Both the position numbers and the translations under genes were made by a program. Shown here piece after piece: positions 7,622 through 62,551 of a DNA stretch of 64,000 nt. The stretch spans positions 10,416,335 to 10,480,334 of the forward strand of contig NC_088868.1 in NCBI RefSeq assembly GCF_032884065.1. Direction: 5' to 3'. Position 1 is the first letter of the stretch. Every line of letters begins with the position of its first letter. The stretch comes from Artemia franciscana. Lineage: Eukaryota; Arthropoda; Branchiopoda; Anostraca; Artemiidae. The notes under the pieces are model-generated. The model was not told the origin of the DNA and did not search any database. It worked only from the letters and a program-made list of their open reading frames with translations.

Positions 7622-7679
7622 TTGATGTTAAAAGTAAAGATCACCATAGAGTAGTGGCTAAGGTTAATTTAAAGCTGAA

Positions 7680-8222
7680 ATTATAGCAGTTCATATAACT
7701 GGCTTTCCTATAAAGTGAATATACCACGTGATGCCTTTTTTTATGCTCTTTACCAATATAATAATTGCTTCTACCTTAAGTTGAGATTTATGCACTTTTT
7801 GCTCTTAAAAATGACAAATTTTCAAAAAATTATGACAGTTCATATAACTGACTTACCAATAAAGCAAACAGTACTTGATGCCTTTTTTATGTTCTGTATG
7901 AATATAATAATTGCTTCTACTACAAATTCAAATTTAAGCACTTTTTAAGCTCTTAAAAATGACAAATTTTCAATTAAAGTACAAGTTATCTGATGTTTCT
8001 GACAAAATAATACTGCATTTTCTCTGTCCTGTTTTCACCAAAATAATACTACATTTTCTCAGTGCTAAAATTATTTATAATCAGCTTAGATTAGGTTAAA
8101 AAGTTCTTAAATTTGAATTTAAGGTAGAAGCAATTATTATATTTGTAAAGAGCATAAAAAAAGGCATCAAGTGATATGTTCACTTTATTGGTAAGCCAGT
8201 TATATGAACTGCTATAATTTTA
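7680..8222. mobile_element. Second foldback element inside the RTE-like LINE
   Basis: The left arm (ATAGCAGTTCATATAACTGG...) occurs twice in direct orientation, at about 7,683 and 7,832. It occurs once as the reverse complement ending about 8,222 (CCAGTTATATGAACTGCTAT). Arms are about 130 bases and include GATGCCTTTTTT.ATG.TCT and AATATAATAATTGCTTCTAC. The flanking RTE sequence resumes in frame (KLKF then QKSNYLPE) after about 8,228. AAATT on both sides may be the target duplication. The extra internal left arm suggests a tandem or partial duplication of the element. It is non-coding. Confidence 0.7.
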
Positions 8223-13598: not shown

Positions 13599-13745
13599 AA
13601 ATAATGGATCCTTTGGAAATTGATACTGATGAACCCTTGGAAGTTCCAAACATTGTTCATTCATCCTATGATTTGGACTCTCCTAAGAGCAATTCTTGCA
13701 GTACGTCTCAGGTTCTGGGTGGTTCTTTAACATTAAAGGAAGAAG
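13599..13745 (+). CDS. Exon E1 of a C2H2 zinc-finger gene (duplicated 49-codon exon)
   Basis: A pyrimidine-rich acceptor (CTCTATATTTCAG) precedes 13,599, and the donor GTATGT follows 13,745. Read in phase 1, the exon encodes 49 residues containing IMDPLEIDTDEPLEV and ending GSLTLKEEG. The peptide is acidic at its start and Ser-rich in the middle, with no domain I recognise. Length is 147 bases and both junctions are phase 1, so it can be included or skipped without changing frame. Three homologous exons follow at 18,404, 24,670 and 30,941. No upstream exon is identifiable, so the gene start is probably outside the window. The exon call rests on conserved splice sites and on conservation of frame among the copies. 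Confidence 0.7.
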
Positions 13746-18403: not shown

Positions 18404-18550
18404 AAATGATGGATCCTTTAGAAGTTGAGACTGATGAATCCTTGGTAGTTCAAAATTTTGATCATTCATCCTATGATTTGGACGCTCCTAAGAGCAGTTC
18501 CCGCAGCTCGATCCAGCTTCTGGTTGGTTCTTTTACGTTAAAGGAAGAAG
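18404..18550 (+). CDS. Exon E2 of the zinc-finger gene (duplicated 49-codon exon)
   Basis: The acceptor CTCTATCTTTTAG ends at 18,403 and the donor GTATAC follows 18,550. The phase-1 frame gives 49 residues beginning with MMDPLEVETDESLVV and ending GSFTLKEEG. It differs from E1 mostly by substitutions that keep the acidic-then-Ser-rich pattern, and it has no frame break. The flanking intron is also homologous to that of E1. Whether E1-E4 are used together, as alternatives, or only partly cannot be told from DNA. Confidence 0.7.
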
Positions 18551-24669: not shown

Positions 24670-24813
24670 AAATCGTGGATCCTTTGCAAATTGAGAATGA
24701 CGAGCCCATGAAAGTCTCAAATATTCCACATTTATCCTGTGGTTCGGACACTCTAAGCAGCTCTTGTAATTCTTCTCATGTTCTGGTTGGCTCTTTGACA
24801 TTGAAGGAAGAAG
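24670..24813 (+). CDS. Exon E3 of the zinc-finger gene (duplicated 48-codon exon)
   Basis: The acceptor CACTTTATTTTTCAG ends at 24,669 and the donor GTATGC follows 24,813. In phase 1 it encodes 48 residues, IVDPLQIENDEPMKV near the start and GSLTLKEEG at the end, one codon shorter than E1, E2 and E4. The loss is a whole codon in the DTLSSS region, so frame is kept. That argues for constraint rather than drift. It is most similar to E4 (shared DEPMKVSN), in line with the closer intronic similarity of units 3 and 4. Confidence 0.7.
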
Positions 24814-25978
24814 GTATGCTTTCAAATAGAAAGAATGCGAAAGTCTTTCCATCGCTTTGTTTATTTAACATTAGCCTAAATTTTTTTATCAAATAAAGCA
24901 TAAAGTGGCATTTTGACGCACTTGGTCTCATCTTTATGAATCCTGACGCGATTTTAATTTTTGGAATGTGCAAAAAATATAGGGAAAATGCTCAGAGTCT
25001 TTAGATTACCGAAAAGGCTGAACTAAAATTTATTCAAAAATTTGTCACAAAAAAAACAAGAAAAATCAACCCTGGTTGCAAATTTTTCACAAGAGTGTTC
25101 TATACTAAAAAAAAATAAAGTTGGGAGGGGAGGGGATTTCAAATTCATTTAGGCTTTTCTTTTTCCTGTTCTGCCTAGAAACCCGATAAAAATAATTGAA
25201 AAATGTTCCTGGATCTTATTTGAAAGCTCAGACTTTCAGAATACATTACTGAGAGGAAAAAAGGATAAATTGTCGTCTTCGGCAATGTTCAGACATTTGG
25301 AGGTAAAGAAATTATTTAAATTTGAAAAACGTGTTTGTGGTGTATATTTGCTCCTGAGCCCATGTCCCCTGATGATATTTCCTCATATCTCTAATCAAAG
25401 ACTTAGGCTCCTTTTCTGTCCAAAACGAAGTTATGTTATTTCTTGTGAACACAATTCTGCCTGTTGCCTATAATTTTGCCTATAATTCTGCCATCTGCCT
25501 ATTGCTCGTTTAAAATGTGTTTTTAATGACCATTGCCTATCATAGTCTGTAAGTTAGCATTGATTTACTTTATTTCAACTCATCTTCCTAAAAACTCTTT
25601 CCTTAGCCTAATTATACAAAAGAGAAAGATTCTGAAACTTATGAAATGGTTCTTTTGAATGTAAATTGAAAAGCAAATCTTGAATGAGGTCTAAATATAG
25701 CATCCAGATCAAGTGCAAATCAAGCACCGACTGACTCAGTGACAAAAAAGATTTTCTCTGATTTTGTGCTAAAAATAGTAAGTGCTTACGAGATATAGCA
25801 AAATATGTACATTTTCCTATCAAATTTTATTTTTTCCTTACCCCTTGCCAATTTTTTAAAAGAAAGATAGCGAGATAGTATATTGTTCACTAGTTGGTTT
25901 GGAAACTATATTACAAGCACTTTAGTCTGGTGAGACTAAAGGCTTTCAGCATTCACATCCATTCTTTGCTTTTTTTAA

Positions 25979-26395
25979 GAAAGTGCTCAGTTCTGCTTGA
26001 AGCTTATTGTGGGAAATACTTGGAACCAATGGATATTATACGATATATATAATTCATAAATGATAAATTTATTCATGAATTCATAACCTTTTTCAAGAAA
26101 GAGCTCAGTTCGACTTGAAGCTTATGTGGGAAATACTTGGAACCAAGGGATATTATATGATATATATAATTCATAAATGATAAACTATTCATGAATTTAT
26201 AATCTTTTTCAAGAAAGAGCTCAAATCGACCTGAAACTTATGTGGGAAATACTTTGAACCAAGGGATATTATATGAAATATATAATTCATAAATGATAAA
26301 TTAATTTATGAATTTATAACCTTTTTCAAGAAAGAGCTCAAATCGACCTGAAACTTATGTGGGAAATACTTTGAACCAAGGGATATTTTTTTCAC
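25979..26395. repeat. Tandem repeat, about 117-bp unit, 3.5 copies
   Basis: Units start at about 25,979, 26,097, 26,213 and 26,329 with GAAAGAGCTCAG/AATCG, followed by GGGAAATACTT.GAACCAAGGGATATTATA and ATAATTCATAAATGATAAA. The homologous place in segmental unit 4 (34,205-34,275) has only one such unit, so the expansion is specific to unit 3. Confidence 0.75.
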
Positions 26396-30845: not shown

Positions 30846-30940
30846 TACTGTAAAGGGTTCATTACACAGTTTACTGCACGTTTTATTTTACAATGTGTTC
30901 TGTTATACTTTTTGTGTCATTTAGTCACTTTATCTTTCAG

Positions 30941-31087
30941 GAAATATGGATCCTTCACAAATTAAGAATGATGAGCCCATGAAAGTTTCAAATCTTTCTC
31001 ATTCATCCATTGGCTTTGACACTCTTAATAGCAGTTCTTGCAACTCATCTCAGGCTCGTGTTGGCTCTTTCACATTAAAGGAAGAAG
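30941..31087 (+). CDS. Exon E4 of the zinc-finger gene (duplicated 49-codon exon)
   Basis: The acceptor CACTTTATCTTTCAG ends at 30,940 and the donor GTATGC follows 31,087. In phase 1 it reads GNMDPSQIKNDEPMKV... and ends GSFTLKEEG, 49 residues with no stop. It is the last full-length copy. From its donor onward, the exon's 3' half plus donor plus proximal intron are repeated 15 times. The next downstream exon in phase is at 35,805 (G|GC then SFRNGRS). Confidence 0.7.
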
Positions 31088-33240
31088 GTATGCTTTCAAA
31101 TAGAAAGAATACAAAAGCCGTTCCAATTTTCAAATTTTTTTCCTTCATCCTATGGCTTTGACGCTCTCTAGAGCAGTCCTTGCAACTCATCTCGGGCTCT
31201 GGTTGGCTCTTTCACACTAAAGGAAGATGGTATGCTTTCAAATAGAAAGAATACAAAAGCCTTTCCAATTTTTAGATTTTCTCCTTTGTCCTATGGCTTC
31301 GACGCTCCTAAGAGCAGTCCTTGCAACTCATCTCAGGCTCTGGTTGGCTCTTTCACATTAAAGGAAGGAGATATGCTTTCAAATAGAAAGAATACAAAAG
31401 CCTTTCCAATTTTCAAATTTTTCTCCTTCATCATATGGCTTCGACACTCCTTAGAGCAGTCCTTGCAACTCATCTCAGGCTCTGGTTGGCTCTTCCACAA
31501 TAAAGGAAGAAGGTATGCTTCCAAATAGAAAGAACACAAAAGTCTTTCAAATTTTCAATTTTTTTCAAACTTTTCTCCTTCATCCTAGGGCTTCAACGCT
31601 CCTAAGAGCAGTCCTTGCAAATCATCTCAGGCTCTGGTTGGCACTTTCACATTAAAGGAAGGAGATATGCTTTCAAATAGAAAGAATACAAAAGCCTTTC
31701 CAATTTTCAAATTTTTCTCCTTCATCCTTTGGCTTCGACACTCCTAAGAGCAGTCCTTGCAACTCATCTCAGGCTCTGGTTGGCTCTTTCACAATAAAGG
31801 AAGAAGGTATGCTTCCAAATAGAAAGAACACAAAAGTCTTTCAAATTTTCAATTTTTTTCAAACTTTTCTCCTTCATCCTAGGGCTTCAACGCTCCTAAG
31901 AGCAGTCCTTGCAACTCATCTCAGGCTCTGGTTGGCTCTTTCACATTAAAGGAAGGAGATATGCTTTCAAATAGAAAGAATACAAAAGCCTTTCCAATTT
32001 TCAAATTTTTCTTCTTCATCCTATGGCTTCAACGCTCCCTAGAGCAGTCCTTGCAACTCATCTCGGGCTGTGGTTGGCTCTTTCACACTAAAGGAATGAA
32101 GGTGTGCTTTCAAATAGAAAGAATACAAAAGCCTTTCCAATTTTTAGATTTTCTCCTTTGTCCTATGGCTTCGAAGCTCCTAAGAGCAGTCCTTGCAACT
32201 CATCTCTGGCTCTGGTTGGCTCTTTCATATTAAAGGAAGAAGATATGCTTTCATATAGAAAGAATACAAAAGCCTTTCCAATTTTCAAATTTTTCTTCTT
32301 CATCCTATGGCTTCAACGCTCCTAAGAGCAGTCCTTGCAACTCATCTCAGGCTCTGGTTGGCTCTTTCACATTAAAGGAAGAAGATATGCTTTCAAATAG
32401 AAAGAATACAAAAGCCTTTCCAATTTTCAAATTTTTCTTCTTCATCCTATGGCTTCAACGCTCCTAAGAGCAGTCCTTGCAACTCATCTCAGGCTCTGGT
32501 TGGCTCTTTCACATTAAAGGAAGAAGATATGCTTTCAAATAGAAGAATACAAAAGCCTTTCCAATTTTCAAATTTTTCTTCTTCATCCTATGGCTTCAAC
32601 GCTCCTAAGAGCAGTCCTTGCAACTCATCTCGGGCTGTGGTTGGCTCTTTCACACTAAAGGAATGAAGGTGTGCTTTCAAATAGAAAGAATACAAAAGCC
32701 TTTCCAATTTTCAAATTTTTCTTCTTCATCCTATGGCTTCAACGCTCCTAAGAGCAGTCCTTGCAACTCATCTCAGGCTCTGGTTGGCTCTTTCACATTA
32801 AAGGAAGAAGATATGCTTTCAAATAGAAAGAATACAAAAGCCTTTCCAATTTTCAAGTTTTTCTCCTTCATCCTATGGCTTCGACGCTCCTAAGAGCAGT
32901 CCTTGCAACTCATCTCAGGCTCTGGTTGGCTCTTTCACATTAAAGGAAGGAGATATGCTTTCAAATAGAAAGAATACAAAAGCCTTTCCAATTTTCAAAT
33001 TTTTCTCCTGCATCCTTTGGCTTCGACACTCCTAAGAGCAGTCCTTGCAACTCATCTCAGGCTCTGGTTGGCTCTTTCACAATAAAGGAAGAAGGTATGC
33101 TTCCAAATAGAAAGAACACAAAAGTCTTTCAAATTTTCTCCTTCATCCTAGGGCTTCAACGCTCCTAAGAGCAGTCCTTGCAAATCATCTCAGGCTCTGG
33201 TTGGCACTTTCACACTAAAGGAAGAAGGTATGCTTTAAAG
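31088..33240 (+). repeat. 142-bp tandem array built from an exon-intron boundary (15 units)
   Basis: The LKE codon region recurs with its conserved GA start at 31,223, 31,364, 31,506, 31,658, 31,800, 31,952, 32,094, 32,236, 32,378, 32,520, 32,661, 32,804, 32,946, 33,088 and 33,221. The period is 142 bases (152 in two variants with a 10-base insert, 133 for the last step). Each unit holds about 95 bases of the E4 3' half (GCTCCTAAGAGCAGTCC to AAAGGAAG), the donor position, and about 45 bases of proximal intron (CTTTCAAATAGAAAGAATAC). The donor GT is kept in 7 of 15 units and is AT in 8. Because 142 is not a multiple of three, the array cannot encode a continuous repeat protein. After the last unit the normal E3-like downstream intron follows. 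Confidence 0.9.
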
Positions 33241-33394
33241 TAGAAAGAATACAAAGCCTTTCCATTCTTGTGTTTATTTTACATTAGGCTAATTTTTATC
33301 GAATAAAGCATAAGCTGGGATTTTAACGCACTTGGTCTCAGTATGTATGAAACATGACATTATTCTTTCTTTCATGGAATTCTAATTTCCGTAA

Positions 33395-35804: not shown

Positions 35805-36347
35805 GCTCTTTCCGTAATGGTCGTTCTCAGAAGAAACGTAGTAGACTTGTGAAAGATTTGTCAAATACTGGAGAAACTATTTGGTTGCCAAGTGTATCCA
35901 ACCAGTCGAAACAAGGTGAAAAAATCTATTTAAAAACAACTGTTGAGATAGAACAGCTAACAAAACGCACCATTGAAGAAAACTGCTGTGGTAGATGGCG
36001 GTGTAGTGCTTGCGGAAAGATTGAAAATTCTTTCTATTTCTTACAACTTCATAAGTCTACAAACTGTGAAACAGGGTCGTCATTTAACTGTGAAGTTTGT
36101 CGTAAAAAAATAGATAACTACTCAGATTTTGCCATTCACTATATAGAACATGAAGCTGATAAAAAAAAGAAATGCCCCATTTGTTTATGTCCGAACGTTA
36201 ATAATATGAAGGAACATGTAATTGTGGAGAATCATTTGTCTGGGGATATTAATGGATTCATATTTACTGGTAATGAATGCAAGAAAAGCAGTGAAAAGGC
36301 TAAGCAAGAAGTTTTTTACAATTCTACCATTGATGGATACTGCCAAG
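35805..36347 (+). CDS. Exon encoding three divergent zinc fingers (zinc-finger gene)
   Basis: The acceptor TCTAATCTTTTAG ends at 35,804 and the donor GTATTT follows 36,347. It is phase 1 at both ends, with 543 bases and 181 codons open throughout. A basic start (SFRNGRSQKKRSR) is followed by Cys/His modules. These are CSACGK..H....C near residues 69-93, CEVCRKK...H....H near 98-120, and CPICLC...H....H near 126-146. The spacing is less regular than in the terminal exon. The donor shows it is internal. E4 can splice to it in frame (EEG then SFR). I do not recognise a named gene. Confidence 0.75.
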
Positions 36348-38599: not shown

Positions 38600-39410
38600 T
38601 TCACTAAGATTTGGCTGAGGTTGAAGACGAAATCGAAAGGCAATATGTGCATGTAGATTGTCAAAGTGTCATTACAGCAATATCTCAAGAGTGGCTGAGG
38701 GTATAATGTTGATGCTTTCAGGGCTGCTACTACTACTGCTAATATGCAACTAAATCTACAATTACAGTGCACCCGGGTCGTCAAAATGACGTTGATGCGA
38801 TACCCCAAAAACAGACCAGGGTAATAAGTTGAAACTTTAAAGCAAGTTGATGGTGAAGTAAAACTAAGTCAAAACGTACTATGTGTATCAAAATAATCAA
38901 AACTTCGTCTGTGCAGTATCCCTAGAACAACTGAGCATATTACGTTGAAACTGTCAGGGCACGTTTTGTGTTTGTGTTTAACTAAATGAGAAAACAGTGT
39001 GCATCAAAAATTGTTAAAAGGGCATATCTGTGATATCTCAAAACGCACTATGTGCATCAAAATAATCAAAACTTTGTCTGTGCAGTATCCCTAGAACAAC
39101 TGAGCAGATTACGTTGAAACTGTCAGGGCACGTTTTGTGTGTGTTTAACTAAACGAGAAAGCAGTGTGCATCAAAAATAGTGAAAAGGGCATATCTGTGA
39201 TATCTCAAAACGCACTATGTGCATCAAAATAATCAAAACTTTGTCTGTGCAGTATCCCTAGAACAACTGAGCATATTACGTTGAAACTGTCAGGGCACGT
39301 TTTGTGTGTGTGTTTAACTAAACGAGAAAACAGTGTGCATCAAAAATTGTTAAAAGGGCATATCTGTGATATCTCAGGGACTGCTAAGGGTTGTAAGTTG
39401 AATTTAACTG
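38600..39410 (+). repeat. Repeat family A, including three near-identical 165-175 bp units
   Basis: From about 38,870 the block beginning ACTATGTG.ATCAAAATAATCAAAACTT repeats at about 39,049 and 39,212. Each copy carries TGTGCAGTATCCCTAGAACAACTGAGCA, GTTGAAACTGTCAGGGCACG, GTGTTTAACTAAA.GAGAAA and AAAAGGGCATATCTGTGATATCTCA. The copies are almost identical, so the local amplification is recent, unlike the older family A copies elsewhere. Confidence 0.75.
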
Positions 39411-42189: not shown

Positions 42190-42790
42190 AGCTCTGCATA
42201 TTTTAAGGTCCACTTCGCACCTCGTTAATTCACACTTTAATGCTTTCTCCACTTCCTTTACATTTCTCTTAATTCACATTTTAAGGTCCATTTCCACCTC
42301 TTTAATTCATGTTTTGATGCTTTCTCCGCTTCCTTTACATTTCTATTGATTCACATTTTGAAGTCCACATCGCACCTCTTTAATTCAACCTTTAATGCTT
42401 TCTCCACTTCCTTTACATTTCTCTTAATTCACATTTTAAGGTCCATTTGCACCTCTTTAATTCACACTTTAATGCTTTCTCCACTTCTTTTACATTTCTC
42501 TTAATTCACATTTTAAGGTCCATTTGCACCTCTTTAATTCACACTTTCATGCTTTCTCCACTTCCTTTACATTTCTCTTAATTCACATTTTAAGGTCCAT
42601 TTGCACCTCTTTAATTCACACTTTAATGCTTTCTCAACTTAATTTACGTTTCTCTTAATTCACATTTCAAGGTCCATTGGCACCTCTTTAATTCACGTTT
42701 TAGTGCTTTCTCCACTTCCTTTACATTTCTCTTAATTCACATTTTAAGGTCCATTTGCATCTCTTTAATTCACATTTTAATGCTACATCA
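42190..42790 (-). repeat. 77-bp tandem repeat, about 7.7 copies, within the LINE ORF
   Basis: TGCTTTCTC starts units at 42,241, 42,318, 42,396, 42,473, 42,550, 42,627 and 42,704, with a partial at 42,781. Read on the minus strand, each unit resembles the NVK.VEKA.KCELKRC segment of the RTE-like ORF (compare about 8,520-8,575 in copy 1). The array is therefore an expansion of coding sequence. The period of 77 breaks the frame in each unit. Confidence 0.85.
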
Positions 42791-44290: not shown

Positions 44291-44798
44291 TTCTCTTCTA
44301 TCAATAAGAGTTGCAATCCCTCCCAAACAATCTCATGCCTGTAATCTCCGACTCATCATATACTCATGTCTACAAACATTATGCTACTTCTAGGATAACT
44401 TAGCTATGAAAATATTTTTCAGTCCCCCGAAAAAAAAACCCCAAAACAAACCAAACTCAAAACAATAATCCATTCATCAGTTCGTCAAATTCATCATCAA
44501 AAGACAGTCCTTTGCTTAACAATTAATAAAATATTATTGTTTTTTTCTTATTTTGAACTTGCCTATCGTTAGTCTTTTAACTATTGGCGCATGCAAGAGC
44601 CTCTACTAGGAAGTATTATTTTGGTAATTTGGCAGCTTTGGGAGTTCCGGGAGTCAGATTAATCGTCAAACTCCTAGTCCCGAAGCTGAATATTTGTTGG
44701 TACTGACTTTAGGTAGACGACTTTTTTCAGTGAAGTTGACTTAGAGCACCCATATTATTTCTCATAATATTTATGTCTTTAGTTTCTTATTTTTTTAG
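44291..44798 (+). other. Intron 3' end before the terminal exon
   Basis: This is ordinary AT-rich intron. It ends with the pyrimidine tract and acceptor TTTCTTATTTTTTTAG at 44,783-44,798. Confidence 0.5.
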
Positions 44799-47494
44799 AA
44801 ATGGACATATTCAGTGAAGAAGCTTATGAAGTGATGTCCTCTGACGAATCTGACCCCGAAAAAATTCTAGGAATGATGCCTCCGAAGAGCTCCATCAGTC
44901 ATACCAAGAACCGCTCTAGTGGTAAAAGACTATCACAGCCAGAGGAAGTTGCTTTGAAATCCTTCGGTTCAAGGTGGAACAAAATGTCACTTTCGTTTAA
45001 AGAAAAGCTGGATATAGAGTCTTCGGAAAACACTCACATTTGCAAACTTTGCAATGAATCCTTTTCCCTCCTCATTTCACTTTCAATTCATATGAGAGGT
45101 CATGATGAAATTGAAATTCAGCAATGTCAGTTTTACCGTTCAAAATTCAAGAAAAAGCATAATATTGATTATCGTTTCGAAACTCAAAATGGGACAAGAG
45201 ATAGTTTTTATGAGTGCACAATCTGTAAAAGGACATTCATCATTCGTAGATCATTCACAAATCATATGCGATGGCACAGGAAGTTACTGCGTGCGATGGC
45301 ACTAAATGATGAATCTGCAAGTGATCCAGTGTCTACAGATCATAGAGGTTTGACCTATGATAATTTAAATAAATGTGCTACATGTGGGTCAACTTACAAA
45401 TATCGCGGAGGTCTTTTACGGCACTTGAGATGCAACCCAGAACATAGAGAAACTCATTTTTGTAATATTCATGATAAAACTTTTTCCCCTGATCTGTTAT
45501 TTCAGCCTCAGACGGAAACTTATAAATCGAACAATGAAAATGAAATGTTTCAGTGTCCCTTTTGTCAAACCAGATTCAAGGAAGAACGTCATCTTTGCAG
45601 TCACTTGGTGGCCCACAGGGACAAAACATGTAATTTGTGCATTAGATGTAACATGTGCACTAGTTCTTTTTCTTTGCCTTCTGAATTACTGAATCATTTA
45701 AAAATGCACGAAAAGACTAAAGCAACCGAGAAGACGGAAATTGCATCTGCAACCTTCTGTGCAAATCTTCTGGTTGCTGTGCAACCTTCAGAAAATTCGG
45801 ATGCTAAACCTCCTAGTAATTCAGAACCAGTGGCTAATAACATCGTTAGAGAAAGCAATTTTAATGAATGCGGTATTTGCAAAAAGACTTACATCAAACG
45901 TAAATCACTCTTAGGACACTTGCGGAAGCATTCCGAACTTCGCAAAAGATTATCGGTCAAAGATAAGCCATCTAAACTAAAAGAAATAAGTCATCCTTAC
46001 GAATGTGCTTCATGTGGAAAAAGGTTCAAAGACCGTAAGTATTTTTTACGACACTTACGAACACAACACAAGCAAACTGAGAATGGCAATGAAGATGAAG
46101 TGCATCAGTGTCCCTTTTGTCAAACGAATTTCGAAAAGAAGTATCATCTGTGTCGTCATTTGATGACTCACAAAAATGGAGGTGAACTAAGATGTAACAA
46201 GTGCTCTGAATCTTTTTCCTGGCCTTTTGAGTTAGTGACCCACATGGAAATGCACAAGAAAACAGAAATGGCTTGTTCTGTCCAACCTTCAGAAAATTCA
46301 GATGATGAACCTACAAGTAATTCAGAACTAATAACTAATAACATCGTCGGAGAAAGTAATTTTAATGAGTGTGGTATATGCAAAAAGACTTACGTCAACC
46401 GTAGATCACTCTTACGTCACCTGCGAAGGCATGTTGAGGGTAGAAAATACTTGTGTTACATATGTGGCTTAGGCTTTTTTAGAGACATTGACCTTAGAAT
46501 GCATATACAAAGACATACAGGCGATAAAAATTTCACGTGTGACAAATGTGGAAAGAGTTTATACAGCATGTCTCTTTTGAATCAGCATTTGAAAAAGCAT
46601 GCTATAGAAGAGAGTGGACAGAGACCAGAAAAGATATTTGGTTGTGAAATCTGCAACACAAAATTTGAAACAAAGATAGGTTACTCACTGCATATGAAGA
46701 AGCACAATGAGGGTGCCACACATGAATGTGGATTTTGTCAAAGAAAGTTTTACACAAGCTACAGGTTAACTGAACATAAGAGGACTCATACGGGCGAAAA
46801 ACCGTATGAATGCAAGATATGCAGCAATAGTTTTGCTCAAAAACAGGGTTTAAATTCCCATATGAAAACTCACAGTGACAAAAGACCTTACAGCTGTGAA
46901 CTCTGTACCAAAACATTCAAGAAAAAAAGTACAAAGAATGATCATGTAAATACTCACACTGGTAATAGACCTCATAAATGCAAGCAATGTGATATGTGTT
47001 TTGGTTCAAGAAAGGTTCTTAAAAAACATAAGAGGGTGCATACGAGGAATCCAGAAGAAAAGAAATTCAGAGAGAAGAAGTTCAGTTGTAACATATGCAG
47101 CGAAGTATTCGCCGTGTCTGCTTATCGTGACAAGCATGTGGCTTTACATGAAAATCCTAGCCCTTTCAGCTGTGAGTTCTGCAGTAAAAGTTTCAACTAT
47201 AAGAAAAACATGGTAGCGCATGTGCAGCGATGTCATCCCAGTTGCAATCCATTTAGATGTAAGCTGTGTAGTAAGACTTATGACACCATTAGGAAAATTG
47301 ATGTACATATAAACTCTCGTGCTTGTGTAAAAATTAACAAATCCCACAAGAAGTCGAAAAATCAAGGTAAATCCACTGAGGTGGCTGGAAACACGAATGC
47401 TGAGAATCTATTTATATGTAATGTTTGTAATGGGGATTTTATGTCGGCTGAGGAAATTCAAGACCATTTTAACGCTTCCCATAAGCCTTCTTAG
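44799..47494 (+). CDS. Terminal exon: C2H2 zinc-finger array protein
   Basis: This open frame has 897 codons from the first ATG (44,801). The exon actually begins at an acceptor at 44,798, in phase 1 with the 40,358 donor, so Met is probably internal. It has an acidic, Ser-rich leader (SEEAYEVMSSDESDPEK). About 20 C-x2-C...H-x3-5-H modules follow, from ICKLCNESF (residue about 79) to FICNVCNGDF at the C-terminus. Two modules are degenerate (CQFY, CNIHD). The third-from-last is H-x4-H and the penultimate ends in Cys (C2HC type). Classical TGEKPY-type linkers occur only late (about residue 660 on). Residues about 240-370 and 420-515 are an internal duplication (CPFCQT.F, SENSD..P.SNSE, NFNECGICKKTY). 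A sequence-specific nuclear DNA-binding protein is the likely role; the gene name is not recognised. Confidence 0.9.
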
Positions 47495-53273: not shown

Positions 53274-53928
53274 CAAGAACCTTTGCAAATACTGCATTTG
53301 CAACGACTGCAATATTTCGTAACCGTCATTATTACCACGAGATCAAACAACAACTCATTACTCTTTTGCAGTTTTAAAGAAAACATTGCTTTAAATTGTT
53401 GTATGATCAATCGAAAGTCGATAGACCGTTGTAGAATGGTCTAATTGTAAATTGATCTGGTACTTCAGCAGAAAATTGAGCATTTTTGGAAACTTAACAT
53501 GCACTTAGAGGGTTTGGGCATGTCTAGAAATTCCCTACCGATATGTGACGCTATCTACCGCCGAATTTTAGGCACGCCACACCGAATTCCAAAGCCTGCG
53601 AAGTGGAAATACTGCCTACTAGTCAAATTTTTTGCTGGAATAGTCATGCAACATTTGAAAGATCCTGACAACAAAAATCAAGTTCATCTATTCAATTCTA
53701 TGAAGTATATAATTTCTAATCTGAATTTTAAATTCACGCTTATATTTTTATATTTAAGAAATATCAAAAGCAACAAAATTCAAAAAGCAATTGACACTGA
53801 ATTTCGGAATTCACAGCACGTGCTTCTTGTGAAAAAGGTTTTTAACTAAAAACTTGTTTGTGGTGCATGAAGTCTGTTTGAGAAAATTCTGGAATAAATG
53901 ATTTTGTGGACTGGAGACTAGTGGTATC

Positions 53929-55635
53929 ATGAACAGTCAAACTGGCCCCCCAGCTGGGGGTACAGTAGCTCCTACTAGTGTTGGACAGTATTCAGTGGTT
54001 CATAGTCCCATGCAGGGGCCTGTAAATGGGGCCCCAGGACCACAGATGATGCAAATGCAGTGGAATATGCCTAGTGGTATGCAAAAAGTCATGTTTCCGG
54101 CAGTCGTACCAAATGTTTATGGACAAGTATATACCCCAACTTCCAACCCATCACAGCAGTATATGTATACAGTGAATAACACAAATGATGGACTTGAATC
54201 AGGCCAAGTTATGACACAACTATATGGACAGCAAGTGTACAGTAATCGAGCACCAGTGCTGAACCAGGCACAGTATGCTTGTACAGTGAGTAACAGATAT
54301 AATGGACTTGAAGTGGAAGAATGTGAGTTAGAAGGTATTGACCATTCTCCACCTGACACAAACTTTGAATCTGATGATATGACTATGGTAAACCCAAGAG
54401 TAGTGGAAGGACTATGCTCAAGAGGAAAAGAGAATAACTTGAAAAGGAGAGTGACCTCACCTATTAGTAATGAAAGTGTTCAGATTGAAAGGGGAGCACC
54501 AAAGAGACAATTTGTTCACCAAAGACCAGACCAGAAGGCCAAAGGCCTGTCACTTACAAAAGATAAGAGAAATATTTCAAATTTCCAGATCCCATTATTG
54601 GAAATACCTGAAAAGGAAATGATACATGGAAGTGTTGTAATCAAAGCAGTTGATATAAATGCCAAGTTCTTAAATGAATACGAACTTTGTATGTTTTTCA
54701 AGGAAAAAATTAGTGGCAGATTTGAGTTTGAAACAAATCGTGAAGGGAACACTATTTACTTGCATTTAAAAGATGAGAGCGGGATGAAATCAGCATTGGA
54801 AATCAAAACTGTGAATAACATAGAAGTAACAGTTTTAAGGAAAGAACATGTATCAAGAGGTGTGATGAAAGGAATTCCTTTATATTTATCAATTGTACAA
54901 ATTGAGGAAAGTATCAAATCTGCTGTGCCTGTAAAAGAAGTGATTAGAATGCAGAGGTATAACCGGGATCTAAAAAAGCTTGAAGACAGCCTGTCAGTAA
55001 TGGTGGTTTTTGAATCAATTATAACCCCAGCAAGTGTGTGGTGCTGCGGTAGAAACAGAGATTTCTTACCCTACCATAGGAAGGTGATGCAGTGCTACAA
55101 ATGCCAGAAATATGGGCATCTTCAGAAAGACTGTAAATCAAAGGAGATCTGCCTCAGATGTGCCAAGAATCATCAAAGCCGTGATTGCCCTCTGAAACAG
55201 GAGAGTGTAGATGAGCGTACCAGCAGATACAGGTGCGCCAATTGTAAACAAAACCATTCATCCACTTCATCAGTATGCCCAGTAAGAAGGGAGAACCAAC
55301 AAGTGCTAGAAGTGGCAGAAAAGTATGGCATGGGATTTAAAAGAGCAAGGACAACATTTAGAAGTTATGCTCATGTAGTCCAGAATAACCTGAATCCTGA
55401 GAAAAGAATAATAAGTAACACTGCAGCAGAATTGCAACAAATGACGGCAAAGAAGTTAGTGATTGGGATGCTTATAACCCCAGGAATACTGAGTATTGAA
55501 AACTTGCCATTGAATGAAAAGGTAGATAAACTGTGTGAATTGGTTGAGCAAATGAAGTTTGGAAAACTTGACCGCAATGATGTAAAATTGGTTTGTGAAA
55601 CAAGTAGCACCTTGGAAAACAGAACATGTCCTTAA
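53929..55635 (+). CDS. ORF1 (gag-like nucleic-acid-binding protein) of the outer LINE
   Basis: This 568-residue frame has a low-complexity Gly/Pro/Gln/Met-rich N-terminus (residues 1-60). A repeated T-V-[NS]-N motif occurs at about 75 and 112, and a mid region resembles the ORF1 fold domain of Jockey/I elements. Three zinc knuckles start at about residue 388: CYKCQKYGHLQKDC, CLRCAKNHQSRDC and CANCKQNHSSTSSVC. ORF1 proteins bind element RNA to form the ribonucleoprotein for target-primed reverse transcription. The stop TAA (55,633-55,635) overlaps an ORF2 ATG as TAATG. No stops or frameshifts are found, so the copy is young. Confidence 0.9.
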   Translation: MNSQTGPPAGGTVAPTSVGQYSVVHSPMQGPVNGAPGPQMMQMQWNMPSGMQKVMFPAVVPNVYGQVYTPTSNPSQQYMYTVNNTNDGLESGQVMTQLYGQQVYSNRAPVLNQAQYACTVSNRYNGLEVEECELEGIDHSPPDTNFESDDMTMVNPRVVEGLCSRGKENNLKRRVTSPISNESVQIERGAPKRQFVHQRPDQKAKGLSLTKDKRNISNFQIPLLEIPEKEMIHGSVVIKAVDINAKFLNEYELCMFFKEKISGRFEFETNREGNTIYLHLKDESGMKSALEIKTVNNIEVTVLRKEHVSRGVMKGIPLYLSIVQIEESIKSAVPVKEVIRMQRYNRDLKKLEDSLSVMVVFESIITPASVWCCGRNRDFLPYHRKVMQCYKCQKYGHLQKDCKSKEICLRCAKNHQSRDCPLKQESVDERTSRYRCANCKQNHSSTSSVCPVRRENQQVLEVAEKYGMGFKRARTTFRSYAHVVQNNLNPEKRIISNTAAELQQMTAKKLVIGMLITPGILSIENLPLNEKVDKLCELVEQMKFGKLDRNDVKLVCETSSTLENRTCP

Positions 55636-56828
55636 TGCAGCTCAAAATATTATCCTGGAATGCATGTTCAATCATGAGAGAAAAAAGGGAATTATTGCTT
55701 CAATATTGTGACAGAAAAGACATTGATATTTTTTGTATTCAAGAAACTTGGCTAAAACCAAATATCATGAGCCCCTGCAAAGGTTTCAACATCTTGAGAA
55801 ATGATAGAATAACAGGAAGAAAAGGTGGAGTTATGATTGGAATAAGAAGTCATATTCATTATGAAGAATTGGACTTAGCAAGCCAGCAATCAATTGATAA
55901 TGAAGTGGAAGTAGTTGGAACTAAACTGTTTTTAAAAAATGAAAAGAAAATGAATGTTATATGTGTATATAACCCATCTGGAAATAATGGACTGTTGGGA
56001 GAAAGGATAGATGAAATTATTAAAATGATACCAGTTGCAGAGGACCTGATAATATTGGGTGATATGAATGCACATAGTAAATCTTGGTGCAAGTGTAGAA
56101 ATGTAAATAGTTCTGGAACAAGTTTAGAAAACTGTTTAATAAATAGCCCAATATGCTTAGCAACACCGGTTGGGATGCCAACTAGAGTTAATCCCCAGAC
56201 AGGAGAGATAACAACAATTGATTTGCTATTATGCAATCCTAGACTCTATATCAAATTGAACATAGAATGTGATGCTGAAAGTGAACTGGCCAGTGATCAC
56301 AACCCCATATTGTGCACTATTAATGAAGAAGTCCTTCTAAAAGGTAATAAGAGAAAGGGATTTAAAACTAAAAATTTTAACTGGTTTATACTCAGAGAAG
56401 CACTGGACGAGTTTGATGTGAAATCACTAACAGAGGAAGAAGTAGAATTATCTAGGAAAGTTGAAATATTTCAAGAGAAATTGATAGAAATAGCCAAAAC
56501 TGTTGTACCATATAGAGAAATCAGCCGTCACCAAGGGTGTATCTGGTGGAATGAAGATTGTTCGAAAGCCAAAAGAGAATTCATTGCAAAAAAGAGAATA
56601 TATAATCTGGTGAGAAATCTTCATAGCCTTATTGAAAAGAACAGAGCTTATGCTATATTTCGAAAAACAGTACTTGAAGCCAAGAAAAAATCATGGAATA
56701 ACTTTATAAACAAACTTGACTTTCGAAAACCAACATCCAAAGTATATGAGTTTATGAAAAAGATGAATAACAGAGCAACTTCAGGCCGGAGCAACCCACC
56801 TATTAATAAGATAATAAGCTTCTTGTGA
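55626..56828 (+). CDS. ORF2 part 1: APE-type endonuclease of the outer LINE
   Basis: The frame holds two possible starts, ATG 55,626 and ATG 55,635; the latter overlaps the ORF1 stop as TAATG. The endonuclease motifs are complete: LSWNACS, IQETWL, LGDMNAHSKSW, TTIDLLLC and ASDHNP (residues about 8-235). This enzyme nicks target DNA to prime reverse transcription. The frame ends at TGA 56,826-56,828. An 8-base repeat (ATAATAAG at 56,811-56,818, adjacent to ATAAG) shifts the reading out of the RT frame. Confidence 0.9.
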   Translation: MSLMQLKILSWNACSIMREKRELLLQYCDRKDIDIFCIQETWLKPNIMSPCKGFNILRNDRITGRKGGVMIGIRSHIHYEELDLASQQSIDNEVEVVGTKLFLKNEKKMNVICVYNPSGNNGLLGERIDEIIKMIPVAEDLIILGDMNAHSKSWCKCRNVNSSGTSLENCLINSPICLATPVGMPTRVNPQTGEITTIDLLLCNPRLYIKLNIECDAESELASDHNPILCTINEEVLLKGNKRKGFKTKNFNWFILREALDEFDVKSLTEEEVELSRKVEIFQEKLIEIAKTVVPYREISRHQGCIWWNEDCSKAKREFIAKKRIYNLVRNLHSLIEKNRAYAIFRKTVLEAKKKSWNNFINKLDFRKPTSKVYEFMKKMNNRATSGRSNPPINKIISFL

Positions 56829-58008
56829 CTGATGATGAAAAAGCTGATGCAGCTGCCAAATTCATGAGCTCTACCGTTGGCCGGGGAGATCCGGATATAC
56901 AGAAGAAGACCAATATGGACACAAAAGTAAGTGACCTTGGAACACAAGGACAAAACGAACCATACAATAGACCATTCATTGAACAGGAATTAATGAATGT
57001 AATTAATAAGCTTCCTGATACATCTCCTGGACCAGACGAAATTTTGCCACAGTTCGTGAAGTCGCTCCCCAAATTGTGGATCAATGTACTGCTAGAATTA
57101 ATCAATGGTATATGGAGGGAGGGAAAATTTCCTGATGTTTGGAAGTATGGTGAAGCAGTAATGCTACCAAAGCCTGGCAAAGACTTATCAAAGATTGAAA
57201 ACTATAGATACATTACCCTTCTCCCTGTTTTGGGGAAAGTTATGGAAAGGATGGTGAAGAAGAGACTGGAAGCTGTGACACAACAGAAGAAAATTTTGAA
57301 AGACATTCAGTGTGGTTTCAGAAAAAATAGAAGTGCAGAAGACAGTCTTATGTGCCTCAAACAGGAGGCATTATATGCTTTGCAAAATGGGTGGATTTTA
57401 GCAGCGATTTTAATTGACATTGAAGGCGCTTTTGATAATATGCTTCATAGAAAAATGGTTGGAGGCCTAGTAACAGCTGGCATAAAAGGCCAAATGTTAG
57501 CATTTTTAAATGATTATTTAATAGGAAGAAAAGTTAAAGTGCGAGTTGGTAGAACAATTTCAAATATAACAGTGTTTCCTGAAAGAGGAATCCCTCAAGG
57601 ATCAGCATTGGGGCCTGACATGTACAACATAGGATCATATGATATTCCTATCAACATGAAGGATGATGGAGGAGCTATTTTTGCAGATGACAATACTGCG
57701 TGGGTCATGGCGCGTGACACCTACCATATAAAGACCCTAATAACCCAGGTCATTGCAAAATTAGAAAAATGGTCCAAAGAAGCTGACTTAAAGTTTTCTG
57801 CAACAAAGACGAAGGCAATTGTTATCACTAGGAAAAGAATTGGAACCCTTCCGGATCTGTACTTAAGTGGCCACCCAGTTGAATATGTTAGTGAAGCAAA
57901 AATACTAGGTGTAGTGGTTGACAATAAACTTACCTGGAAACCCCATGTGATGTATCTTAAATATACATGTTTGAAAAGACTCAATGTTATGAAGAGTTTG
58001 GCCTATAT
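56819..58008 (+). CDS. ORF2 part 2: reverse transcriptase of the outer LINE (interrupted)
   Basis: The frame continues LLVTDDEKADAAA after the 8-base shift. RT motifs are in order: LPDTSPGPDEI, LPKPGKDLSKIENYR, IQCGFRKNRSAEDSL, ILIDIEGAFDNM (motif A), ERGIPQGSALGP (motif B), FADDNTAW (catalytic motif C, about 57,680), then an ILGVVVD thumb-region motif. The catalytic Asp residues are present. The frame is cut at 58,008 within KSLAY. The apparent coding from there to 58,042 belongs to the inserted LINE. Joining to 62,764 restores the frame as LAY-MARGL. Confidence 0.9.
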
Positions 58009-58041
58009 CAGTCTTCATTCAGTCTTTGAACTATATGGATG
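58008..58041 (+). promoter_or_regulatory. LINE internal promoter: initiator TCAGTC plus downstream element
   Basis: TCAGTC at 58,008-58,013 matches the arthropod initiator TCA(G/T)T(C/T), with A (+1) at 58,010. At exactly +28 to +32 (58,037-58,041) lies GGATG, matching the DPE consensus RGWYV. The first T belongs to the target DNA. This Inr+DPE arrangement is known for Drosophila LINEs such as jockey, Doc, F and I, which must carry their promoter inside the transcript. A second TCAGTC at 58,019 lacks a full DPE match. Function is inferred. Confidence 0.55.
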
Positions 58042-58099
58042 AAAACCAGTTTATATTGGTTGGTTAACTTACAGAGGATTATTGTTTGGATATTTATTT

Positions 58100-58260: not shown

Positions 58261-58377
58261 GTACGCAACTTCTGAATATATATCTTGTGAGTATTACTAC
58301 CTGATTTGCTATTGCTTTTACTGACAACTATTGTGGCCCCGCCCACGAATTTTGATGAAATTTGATCATTTCACCGG

Positions 58378-59457
58378 ATGATGCCAGGTGAAAGACTTGT
58401 CTTGAATCCCGTGTTGAATTTCATTTCACGGGCTAGAAATGCAGGTTGTTCAGCTGATAATATTGTAAAAATTGCTTGCGATTTTTTCAAAGGAGATATG
58501 TTAATTGAAGCAAAGAAGATTTTGTGGGCTGACGCCTCTATTACTAGGGTAACTGAGCGCCCCAAAGTGACTGATAATGTAAGTGATATGGTTCGAGCCT
58601 TTGATCTTTGTGATGAGAAAAAGATCAGCCTACCTCAGTATCTGATTTTCGAGCCAGATCAGGTCCCATGTGTGCCAGGGGAGACAACAGCTACGTTAAC
58701 TCAAAAGGTTAATGAACTCTGCATGGAATTTAAAAGCTTCGCTGAGCACCATAAAGCAAGGTCAGTCGTGCAAACTATTCCTGATATGAAACCTCCCCCA
58801 CCCGCAAAACCGTCCTATTCAGTTATTGTGAAAAATCCACCAAAAAACTTGAATAATCCTGACGCTCGAAAAGATTTCCTGGATAAAGCTTGTGGGGGTG
58901 TCAGTTCAAGCATAGTTGTTTTGAGGCCTAGGAGGGATGCATGGCAAGTAGTTCTGTCGGACAAGGGTGCCGCCAATACTTTGGCAGATGCATTAAGCAA
59001 AGTAGACCAATCCATGAATGCTAAAGTGAAGAGTCCTGCCTTTTTCGGTATAGTACGCCGAGTGCCTGACGGAACATCTAACAGTGACCTATGTGATCTC
59101 GCTAATAACTGTACAGAAGTTGTTCAGTTAGGAAGTACGAGGTCTTTTCGATTAAAGTTTGAGTCACGTGACCACCTAAACTATGCCACTGAGAATCCCC
59201 TTGTTATTGGTTACGAGCGTCTACCTATAACTGAGTACAAGTTTTTGCCTACCCAGTGCTACAAATGCCAGTGCTACGGCCATACTGCGAATAACTGTAA
59301 AGCTTCCCCGAGATGCTCAAAATGTGCTGGTGACCACCAGAACTCTAAAGAAAACCCGTGTCAACTTGTCATGAAATGTGCTCTCTGTGGCTCCTCCGAC
59401 CACCCCTGTTATTCGTATAAATGTCCAGAAGCACAGAAACTACTGCTTAAGAAATGA
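58378..59457 (+). CDS. ORF1 (gag-like protein with zinc knuckles) of the inner LINE
   Basis: This frame has 359 residues; the first two codons are ATG (58,378 and 58,381). The N-terminal part (LNFISRARNAGCSADNIVKIACDFF) is a helical-looking segment of a type I have seen in invertebrate LINE ORF1 proteins but cannot name. A central Pro-rich spacer (PPPPAKPSYS) follows. Then comes a region (about 155-290) with RRM-like character and three knuckles near the end: CYKCQCYGHTANNC, CSKCAGDHQNSKENPC and CALCGSSDHPCYSYKC. The stop TGA overlaps the ORF2 start as ATGA (59,454-59,457). The frame is intact. Confidence 0.9.
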   Translation: MMPGERLVLNPVLNFISRARNAGCSADNIVKIACDFFKGDMLIEAKKILWADASITRVTERPKVTDNVSDMVRAFDLCDEKKISLPQYLIFEPDQVPCVPGETTATLTQKVNELCMEFKSFAEHHKARSVVQTIPDMKPPPPAKPSYSVIVKNPPKNLNNPDARKDFLDKACGGVSSSIVVLRPRRDAWQVVLSDKGAANTLADALSKVDQSMNAKVKSPAFFGIVRRVPDGTSNSDLCDLANNCTEVVQLGSTRSFRLKFESRDHLNYATENPLVIGYERLPITEYKFLPTQCYKCQCYGHTANNCKASPRCSKCAGDHQNSKENPCQLVMKCALCGSSDHPCYSYKCPEAQKLLLKK

Positions 59458-61187
59458 ACAGTCAAACAAACACAAATACAAGTACTTTACAAGATTTTAC
59501 GTTTCTTAATAATTTGTCACTGTGCAATAATGTTGTTTTTAATTATTACGATGACCAAACTAATCTGTCCACCAACACCTTAGCTAGCCCCGATAGCCCT
59601 TTAAACCAAATTAACTGTAAATATCTCGACACTTTTGATTTTGTGAAAAATGTGAAACCTAAGCTAATGGAAGAGACCAAACTTAATGTAATTTGCTTTA
59701 ATATCAGAAGCATACGGGATAAGTGGGCTAATTTTAAAGATTTAATTTTAACAAATGGTTACTGCCCTTTCGACGTAATTGGAATAACGGAGACGTGGCT
59801 TTCAGAAATTGATGATACTAATGAATTTTCCCTCACTGGCTTTCAAGCTATTCATATTGAAAGAAAATTAACCAAGTCCTCTGGCGGCATTTCTCTTTAC
59901 ATCCGATCAAGTGTAAAATTCACCAGACTATTCGATTGTGAATTCTTGTTCTCGCAACCTATAAATAATAGATGCATTTATTCAATAATCGTCGACATAA
60001 GTGTAGACGAGAATTCTTTTATTTTTTCGTTATTTTATAAACCACCCTCATTTCCGACACCTTTCTTTTGTAATCAGTTTGATGATTTTTCTAGTTTTAT
60101 TAATTTACCACAAAAGAAGGCAATAGTTTTTGGGGACTTCAATTGTAATTTATTAAATGTTAGCAATAACAATGATAGTGATACCTTCTTTGAAACATTT
60201 ACCTCAAGTGGTCTTCTTCCCACGATCCTTTTTCCTACTAGAGTTGATCCCATGAGGTCTACCGCTACTTTAATTGATAACATTTTTGTATCCACTTCCC
60301 TGGGAAACCACCTGTCCTCCAAAATAATATTTTCTGACCTGTCAGATCACTTTCCAATCTATCTTTCCTTACCCTCCCTATCAGCTACTCAACCCCGTAG
60401 AACTAATACCCCTACGTCTAATAGAATATATAATACTGTGAATATGAACCGGTTCACGGATTGTTTGAAATCCTTCGACTGGTCCAAGACTTTGGATTGT
60501 CAGGATGTTAATTCAGCCACAAGTAGTTTCACACAGGGATTGAGTGATCTTATTAGTTCAACCTTTCCAGTTCGTAAATCAAACCGAAAAACTACCCATA
60601 TACGCCCCTGGATGTCAAATAGCCTGATAATCTCTTCATACCGAAAAAATGACCTATATAAGTTAGCTTGCAAAACCAGTAGCGTTATTGACCTGACTAA
60701 TTATAAAAAATACAAAAACATATATACCAAACTCATCCGGGAAGCAAAGAAAAATTATTATTATTCAAAAATCTCTCACTGCAAAGGGAACTTGCAAAAA
60801 ATTTGGTCTACAATAAATGAAATCCTTTCAAAAAAAAGGAATTCAAGGTCTGTTCCTATTAATCTTAGGGACATCAGTGGCAGATTAATTGACCCAATTT
60901 TAGTACCGGATGCTTTTAATAATTATTTCACTAATATTCCAAATGCTAACTCCTGTTCCTTCTCACAGTCGGTACACCCTAGCAAGAATCCCAGATCCAT
61001 GTTTTTCTCTCCAACTGATCGCAAAGAGGTGCTTCAAGTTATCGTATCTCTCTCTAATAGTAGTACACCTGACTTCTTTGGCATAAGTAATAAGCTTCTT
61101 AGGACCGTATCTTCCTATATTTGTGAACCCATTGTGCAATATAGCAAACCTGTCTATGACCAATGGAGTCTTCCCAGAAATATTTAA
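59454..61187 (+). CDS. ORF2 part 1: endonuclease and RT start of the inner LINE
   Basis: The start ATG overlaps the ORF1 stop (ATGA). After an Asn/Thr-rich leader of about 75 residues come the endonuclease motifs VICFNIRSIRD, GITETWLS, VFGDFNCNL, TLIDNIF and LSDHFPI. A linker with PWMSNSLI...Y...R and the RT fingers start (INLRDISGRLI.DP) follow. True coding leaves this frame near 61,128, where GAACCC carries one extra C. The last 19 residues to 61,187 are out of frame. Confidence 0.9.
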   Translation: MNSQTNTNTSTLQDFTFLNNLSLCNNVVFNYYDDQTNLSTNTLASPDSPLNQINCKYLDTFDFVKNVKPKLMEETKLNVICFNIRSIRDKWANFKDLILTNGYCPFDVIGITETWLSEIDDTNEFSLTGFQAIHIERKLTKSSGGISLYIRSSVKFTRLFDCEFLFSQPINNRCIYSIIVDISVDENSFIFSLFYKPPSFPTPFFCNQFDDFSSFINLPQKKAIVFGDFNCNLLNVSNNNDSDTFFETFTSSGLLPTILFPTRVDPMRSTATLIDNIFVSTSLGNHLSSKIIFSDLSDHFPIYLSLPSLSATQPRRTNTPTSNRIYNTVNMNRFTDCLKSFDWSKTLDCQDVNSATSSFTQGLSDLISSTFPVRKSNRKTTHIRPWMSNSLIISSYRKNDLYKLACKTSSVIDLTNYKKYKNIYTKLIREAKKNYYYSKISHCKGNLQKIWSTINEILSKKRNSRSVPINLRDISGRLIDPILVPDAFNNYFTNIPNANSCSFSQSVHPSKNPRSMFFSPTDRKEVLQVIVSLSNSSTPDFFGISNKLLRTVSSYICEPIVQYSKPVYDQWSLPRNI

Positions 61188-62551
61188 ATCAGCAATTGTT
61201 ATCCCGATTCATAAAAAAGGCGATCCGTCTGAGATAAGCAATTATCGTCCAATCTCACTTCTCCCAGTTATATCTAAGGTGCTCGAGAGAATTATATTCC
61301 GACGTCTTTCTCCCTTTGTATTTGGGAATCAGTCATCAGATTCGTTGATTTCTCCTCATCAATATGGCTTCCGTGCCAAATTTTCAACTGCTCATGCACT
61401 AATAGACGCCACACAGTTTATACGCTCCCAACTTGACCTTAAAAATACTGTATTGGGCTTATTTCTGGATTTTTCAAAGGCCTTTGACATGGTTGATCAC
61501 AGTGTTTTATTAAGTAAACTCAATAACCTAGGGATTCGCGGAGTTCCTTTCTCATGGTTCGGCTCTTATCTCTCTGGTAGAGTACAGAGTGTGAGACTGG
61601 GCGGGGTGACTTCACATCCCCTACCTGTCCGGAGGGGCGTCCCACAGGGCTCTGTTCTTGGTCCAATACTTTTTCTCCTTTATATTAATGATTTGAAAAC
61701 GGACCTGGGCCCATCAGTGCACCCAGTTCTTTTTGCTGACGATAGCAACTTTTTCATCACCAGTCCTAATTTACCATCCGTCGTCACCTCTACTCAAACC
61801 CTTCTGAATAGAGTACAGGAGTGGTGTCTCGTTAACTGCATGACCATTAACAGCAAGAAAAGTCAGGTGGTATTATTTCAAACCCCTTACAAAAAAAATG
61901 AAGTTCAGCCAGCACTTGGCCTAAAATATTCTACCAATCTCCTCCCGCAGGTCGAAGTTGCCAAGTTTCTTGGTGTCCACATAGACTCCTGCCTATCATT
62001 TGCAACACATGTGTCCTATGTTAGAGCCATAATTTTGCGACAGGTAAGTATAATTAATCGTGTGAATTATTTTCTTCCTCTCGATATCCTTGTCACCCTT
62101 TATTATTCTTTTATTTACCCATATATCTCATACTGCGGATCTGTATGGGGCAATACTTATCCTTCAGTTACCAATAAATTAAAATCTGCTCAAAACCGTG
62201 CCGTCAAAGCAGTTTTTCGGTTGCCACGACTATATCCCACCAAGGACTTGTACTCCGATTTTGGTATTATCCCTTTTGAACAAATCATCAAAAAGTTAAA
62301 TCTATCCCTTGCATATTCCGCTTACCATAAAAATCTTCCTCCCCACTTATTAACTTATTTTAATAGTAATAATTCTGAAGGCCACTGTCTCCGTTTCATC
62401 CAACCGTTCCTTCATTGTCCCCAGGTGTATCTCTAGTTCCGCACAGCGATCCCCAATTTATAAATCTATAATTCAATGGAATGTAATACCCTCCAGTGTC
62501 GAGCTATCCACAAGTTTTCGGACGCTATATAATAATGTACTAAAATCTTGA
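61123..62551 (+). CDS. ORF2 part 2: reverse transcriptase of the inner LINE
   Basis: From about 61,129 the frame reads PLCNIANLSMTNGVFPEIFK and then IPIHKKGDPSEISNYRPISLLP. RT motifs are LDFSKAFDMVDH (A), GVPQGSVLGPILFLLYIND (B), FADDSNFF (catalytic, about 61,740) and FLGVHID. The frame closes at 62,436, but a one-base shift near 62,420 opens the expected C-terminus (SIIQWNVIPSSV...FRTLYNN). That ends at TGA 62,549-62,551, resembling the usual end of CR1/L2-type ORF2. Nothing like RNase H follows. Confidence 0.85.

Follow-up and report, generated by a model that had tools for sequence, protein, structure and literature searches.

An exon-intron boundary of a zinc-finger-like gene of Artemia franciscana as the probable source of an intronic minisatellite

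Results and Discussion

Organization of the locus

The window, the 64-kb stretch of Artemia franciscana DNA that was analysed (C6:10416335-10480334), contains four related exons (E1-E4), a downstream exon to which the last of these can be joined in frame and, between the two, a large tandem array that begins inside E4. Positions are those of the window unless a contig or locus is named.

13599..13745, + strand: related exon E1, phase 1-1, open
18404..18550, + strand: related exon E2, phase 1-1, open
24670..24813, + strand: related exon E3, 144 nt, single copy, phase 1-1, open
30941..31087, + strand: exon E4, 147 nt, phase 1-1, placed by related-exon alignment, open frame and phase; its 3' part from about 30985 is repeat copy u00
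31088..31093, + strand: E4 donor AAG/GTATGC (slash at the exon end), intact; the motif is common to most related exons; U1 duplex -5.7 kcal/mol
31127..33264, + strand: u01-u15, 15 further repeat copies (exon 3' part, donor position and proximal intron), within the intron that follows E4 and ends at the 35805 exon
35805..36346, + strand: downstream exon (the 35805 exon), joined in frame by E4 (phase 1); join open throughout, acceptor AG present in relatives

Phase was computed for the four exons E1-E4 only. When E4 is joined to the 35805 exon, the frame is open in phase 1 through 36346, and the intron that separates the two is 4717 nt long, or 2577 nt minus the extra copies. The Cys/His pattern of the 35805 exon looks C2H2-like by eye; a Pfam hit of its own was not found in the Pfam scan. 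The host gene resembles animal zinc-finger-like genes.

By sequence, E1 and E2 form one subtype and E3 and E4 another. Representatives of both are also present in a cluster of relatives on contig C3, where by coordinates they stand in line with 35805-like exons, and the genes of the family may carry serial N-terminal exon repeats. At 24670-24690, E3 has GTG in place of the ATG of E1, E2 and E4, with the frame still open; judged from its sequence, E3 is a better candidate for an internal exon than for a start exon.

Relatives of E4 and of the 35805 exon in the genome

A search of the 1.27-Gb source genome with E4 gave at least 48 matches. At least 19 are on C6, comprising E1-E4 and the 15 array copies; outside C6, at least 27 were found on C3 (12.34-13.24 Mb), with one match each on C105 and C5. 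The relatives of E4 therefore number at least 32, namely E1-E3 and 29 places outside the window. Acceptor and donor are both present in E1-E4 and in 26 of the 29 related exons, and a GT donor is present in 31 of the 33 aligned exons (the 29 outside places plus E1-E4), a tally that includes one 58-nt partial match (L026) left out of the tree. Two near-identical exons, L019_6165 and L020_5976, have neither GT donor nor acceptor AG. They are one exon each of two loci (C3:13192000-13217000) that lie about 15 kb apart and contain three family exons each, near-identical between the loci.

None of the 29 related exons outside the window overlapped a Tandem Repeats Finder array at a score of at least 50, a threshold that misses a two-copy 30-bp duplication in the L022 exon and that other short two-copy duplications could likewise escape. 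This internal tandem duplication was seen in the alignment of that C3 family exon (L022:917-1134).

The 35805 exon had at least 145 matches, with 150 of 1159 first-look candidates scored. Among the matches listed, 11 besides the window's own had 75-81% identity (nine on C3 and two on C14), and the weakest look like general C2H2-like matches. All 12 loci read for a 35805-like exon share the position of the acceptor AG, and the frame upstream of it contains stops; in one copy, at L041, the frame is shifted at the 35805-like exon and a stop was counted in that copy. The 12 further loci that carry a 35805-like exon gave no match to the unit, E4 or E1. Retrocopies were considered and none was recognized among the 12, since the frame upstream of the acceptor has stops and is unlike an E-exon in every case.

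Structure of the array

Tandem Repeats Finder placed the array at 30986-33264 with a period of 142, 16.0 copies including E4's own, 89% matches and a score of 3574. The array is real and far beyond chance. Anchoring on a conserved motif also gave 16 copies, u00 (E4's own) and 15 further ones (u01-u15), which are arranged head to tail with a unit in the range of tens to hundreds of base pairs, as in a minisatellite. Each unit takes in roughly the final 103 nt of E4, then the donor position and some 39 nt of intron. Since it begins about 44 nt into the exon and leaves the E4 acceptor outside, the units were rejected as whole-exon duplicates. Aligned copies are 133-152 nt long, the majority 142 (the end of u15 was placed by hand). 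A preliminary description of this DNA had reported 15 repeats at 142-bp spacing, each with about 95 exon bases, ending at 33240. The 15 copies beyond E4's own were recovered; the spacing is corrected to 133-152 and mostly 142, the exon part to about 103 nt by unit alignment, and the end to near 33264.

Misassembly as the source of the copy number, or of the whole array, is very improbable. The near-identical units u09, u10 and u12 would be hard to assemble, and the exact copy number may be wrong. Against an artefact, however, the mean difference between units is 8%, individual units have variants of their own, the flanks continue as they do at relatives, and matches in array form occur at one place only, among the matches listed from the one assembly searched.

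Donor positions in the array

The donor GT is retained in seven of the 15 array copies (u01, u03, u05, u07, u11, u14 and u15).

31230..31231, + strand: u01 donor position, GT retained, weaker context ATG/GTATGC, U1 -4.2
31513..31514, + strand: u03 donor position, GT retained, U1 -5.7
31807..31808, + strand: u05 donor position, GT retained, U1 -5.7
32102..32103, + strand: u07 donor position, GT retained, AAG/GTGTGC, U1 -5.2
32669..32670, + strand: u11 donor position, GT retained, AAG/GTGTGC, U1 -5.2
33095..33096, + strand: u14 donor position, GT retained, U1 -5.7
33228..33229, + strand: u15 donor position, GT retained, U1 -5.7

The other eight copies have AT at the donor position and U1 duplex energies of -0.2 or -0.6. 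The donor site is thus not repeated 15 times, as had been stated, and an array of 15 functional donors was rejected, with eight of them dead. Among 575 other GT sites sampled within the window, -5.7 corresponds to the 5th percentile, and the donors with this value are therefore strong sites. Four array donors (u03, u05, u14 and u15) have the same predicted U1 pairing as the E4 donor, which equals or beats every donor of the array and is nearer to the E4 acceptor than any of them. GT retention differs between the units and the family exons (7/15 vs. 31/33, E1-E4 included; Fisher p 0.0005), a comparison in which the units are not independent.

Acceptor-like sites and reading frames

The authentic E4 acceptor is not repeated in the array. 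Three units contain an acceptor-like tract, the first of them as follows.

31567..31588, + strand: acceptor-like tract ending TCCTAG in u04, found by the pyrimidine-content filter

The same tract is found in u06 (ending 31882) and u15 (ending 33151). All three are pyrimidine-rich and read TAG/GG, the first bases after the tracts being 31589, 31883 and 33152, and their pyrimidine contents (0.88, 0.88 and 0.82 for u04, u06 and u15) are above the 0.76 of E4's own acceptor. Nine more sites in the array satisfy the acceptor filter less well, which makes 12 in total; the filter is a rough rule of our own (at least 0.70 pyrimidines in 17 nt, without an AG just upstream). The single acceptor of the preliminary description holds for the authentic site and is qualified by these three copies and the nine weaker sites.

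Followed from the E4 acceptor, the frame runs into the same stop inside unit 1 on the way to every one of the 15 donor positions of the array. Counted from the E4 ATG, the first stop is codon 72, 24 codons beyond the E4 donor. Three of the seven GT donors of the array are in phase with the 35805 exon, and none is both in phase and stop-free; among the 51 GTs in 31089-33299, 13 are in phase with the 35805 exon and 0 of these 13 are stop-free. Extension of E4 into the array as a source of protein isoforms was rejected on the basis of this stop, and the length-variable read-through products that had been proposed fall with it as far as exon extension is concerned.

Cassettes internal to the array were enumerated as well. 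Combination of the 12 acceptor-like sites with the seven donors yielded 43 cassettes, of which 19 are a multiple of three and none is stop-free. When every AG was taken as an acceptor, 535 AG-to-unit-donor cassettes resulted, 190 of them a multiple of three and two stop-free in phase (31681-31806 and 32969-33094, 126 nt each). These two end at the strong u05 and u14 donors, and the AG of each is outside the 12 sites that pass the filter; they are possible cassettes with poor acceptors. Length-variable proteins, in which units would be included as exon extensions or cassettes and add exon-coded segments, are very improbable. The two open cassettes, which end nearly as the segment coded by E4 does, speak for them; the stop in all extensions, the lack of any in-phase and open cassette among the 43, the failure of both AGs at the filter and the absence of a third-position excess in the units (see below) speak against them.

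The same data bear on a decoy role, in which the array donors would compete with the E4 donor, the early-stop transcripts would be degraded and protein output would be lowered by copy number. Seven intact donors, four of them at E4's predicted U1 pairing, are consistent with such competition, as is the early stop encountered whenever E4 is extended to a donor position of the array, which recalls a poison exon, and as are three tracts richer in pyrimidines than the E4 acceptor. We nevertheless consider this role improbable: eight of the 15 donors are lost, the E4 donor precedes all the others and is no weaker than they are, the +1 column of the donor is unconserved and a third-position excess is absent. 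The suggestion of many decoy donors in competition is accordingly weakened by the dead donors and by an E4 donor that is also closest to the acceptor. Slightly less probable still is the more specific form of the idea, a poison-splicing element tunable by copy number in which seven donors and three acceptor-like tracts divert pre-mRNA into early-stop transcripts. Were it true, expansion and contraction of the array would tune the output of one member of a gene family.

Constraint and coding signal

Diversity among the 15 array copies is similar in the exon-derived part (0.082) and the intron-derived part (0.086), and by E4 codon position (1/2/3) it is 0.092/0.080/0.074. An excess at third codon positions was looked for among these 15 copies and not found. 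Units as coding sequence under selection were considered, and codon-position diversity gives no support for this. With pi 0.53, the donor +1 column shares second place among the most variable columns of the unit. Across the final 59 exon columns, diversity is lower than in the rest (0.046), which could be read as constraint and is inseparable from homogenisation. For the exons themselves, dN was smaller than dS in six of six E1-E4 pairs; the difference is clear in E3-E4, E1-E3 and E2-E3 and weak in the remaining three. With dN below dS within E1-E4 and no codon-position signal in the units, the exon family has the look of coding sequence, which the array lacks.

Origin and growth of the array

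E3 retains the single-copy arrangement. The segment 24644-24851 aligns to 30915-31125, and the E3 exon end with its downstream intron (24756-24947) aligns at 82% to 33170-33358, that is, to the last unit and beyond. The array was first described as possibly an unstable minisatellite born in a gene; the single-copy state at E3 and other relatives supports this as to birth in the gene, rather than as to instability.

In the tree, the units form one clade with 98% support. This clade is nearer to the single-copy C3 exons L009_1817 and L010_1825 than to u00, a split with 96% support in a short and probably recombining alignment. Mean identities of the units to these two exons are 0.890 and 0.895, vs. 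0.869 to E4's own copy. Just 3' of the array, the closest resemblance is to L010 (89%, 136 bp), with a match to L009 as well (84%). Before the unit, neither of the two stands out (L018 82%, L010 81% and L009 80%, over about 133 bp). Given the position of the units in the tree, a simple account in which they were copied from E4 needs a later change or conversion of E4. Judged from these comparisons, it is likely that the locus is related to the L009/L010 exons and that the E4 copy underwent change or conversion once the array had arisen.

Several groups of units are near-identical (u03/u05, 97%; u04/u06, 99%; u05/u14, 99%; u09/u10/u12, 100%). Similarity at a lag of two units was matched by 39 of 2000 shuffles, compared with 881, 926 and 331 for lags 1, 3 and 4. 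Growth in blocks of units is suggested by the near-identity of u03/u05, u04/u06 and u05/u14 and by the lag-2 excess.

Interpretation of the array

The array is very probably an intragenic minisatellite that arose by duplication of the E4 exon-intron boundary, is now intronic and is spliced out with the intron. A tandem duplication spanning the boundary would have taken in roughly 103 nt on the exon side and roughly 39 nt on the intron side, and exchange or slippage, by one or several units per event, may then have brought the array to 15 extra copies. The exon's acceptor lies outside the duplicated piece, and for this reason the extra copies would have become intron. Most likely the spliceosome recognises the 147-nt exon by the E4 acceptor together with the first donor, and the array is most likely removed with the 4.7-kb intron up to 35805. 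The donors in the array would then be decaying by-products that are poorly maintained, and the array itself is probably neutral.

Some observations count against the boundary-duplication account. The seven intact donors, including the four that match E4's predicted U1 pairing, could be used; we also count here the tracts of u04, u06 and u15, which exceed the E4 acceptor in pyrimidines, the two open cassettes and the 59 low-diversity columns. If the intact donors are used, the locus would offer a natural experiment on the choice made by the spliceosome between near-identical donors arranged in tandem. With array origin by boundary duplication, it provides a clear example of how a splice-site-bearing repeat arises; since the single-copy state survives at relatives in the same genome, the origin, the growth and the decay of the duplicated donors can be traced directly.

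Comparison with known systems

The human IFI-6-16 (IFI6) gene is reported to contain a minisatellite with multiple splice donor sites (Turri et al., 1995), and two downstream repeat units are reported to act as donor sites, giving three mRNA species (PMC4526556). The preliminary statement that no standard feature type exists is hence too strong, as a donor-bearing minisatellite is in print. The E4 array resembles that of IFI-6-16, as described there, in being a tandem array, with splice donor sequence in some of its units (GT in 7/15 here, not in 8/15). Unlike it, as far as that description goes, the E4 array has a 142-bp unit that includes intron, 8/15 of its donors are dead and the extensions stop early. 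The IFI-6-16 unit donors are reported there to be in use, whereas those of the E4 array are predicted from sequence. By our own criterion for protein isoforms, products of unit donors should keep the reading frame, and here they do not.

For the potato RdRp gene, a tandem duplication is reported across the boundary of the first intron and second exon, with a new intron detected (PMC4974935). As in that description, the duplication at E4 extends over a splice boundary and brings splicing signals along with the copied sequence. Unlike the one duplication reported for potato, the donor side of E4 was copied 15 times with the acceptor excluded. With an ordinary intragenic minisatellite or VNTR, the array shares head-to-tail units and near-identical pairs that suggest block duplication; it differs in that its parent is recognisable as an exon end with its donor. 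The E4 array is a further member of the kind known from IFI-6-16 and potato RdRp, with a longer unit and the donor side only. A closer case was not found in the open-licence literature searched, which is no proof of absence.

Other features of the window

Seven separate arrays with units of at least 50 bp are present in the 64-kb window, the E4 array included; large-unit arrays are thus common in this stretch, which we count in favour of the minisatellite reading. Other large-unit arrays lie at 42200-42784 (77 bp), 25971-26387 (117 bp), 38869-39376 (169 bp) and 7678-7973 (146 bp). Retrotransposon-like runs of reading frames were observed at 53902-58042 and 58366-62436; one ORF was scanned per run, with an endonuclease family match for 55608-56828 and a reverse transcriptase family match for 61087-62436. 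Downstream of the E4 gene, a 903-codon open frame at 44783-47494 contains many C2H2 zinc fingers.
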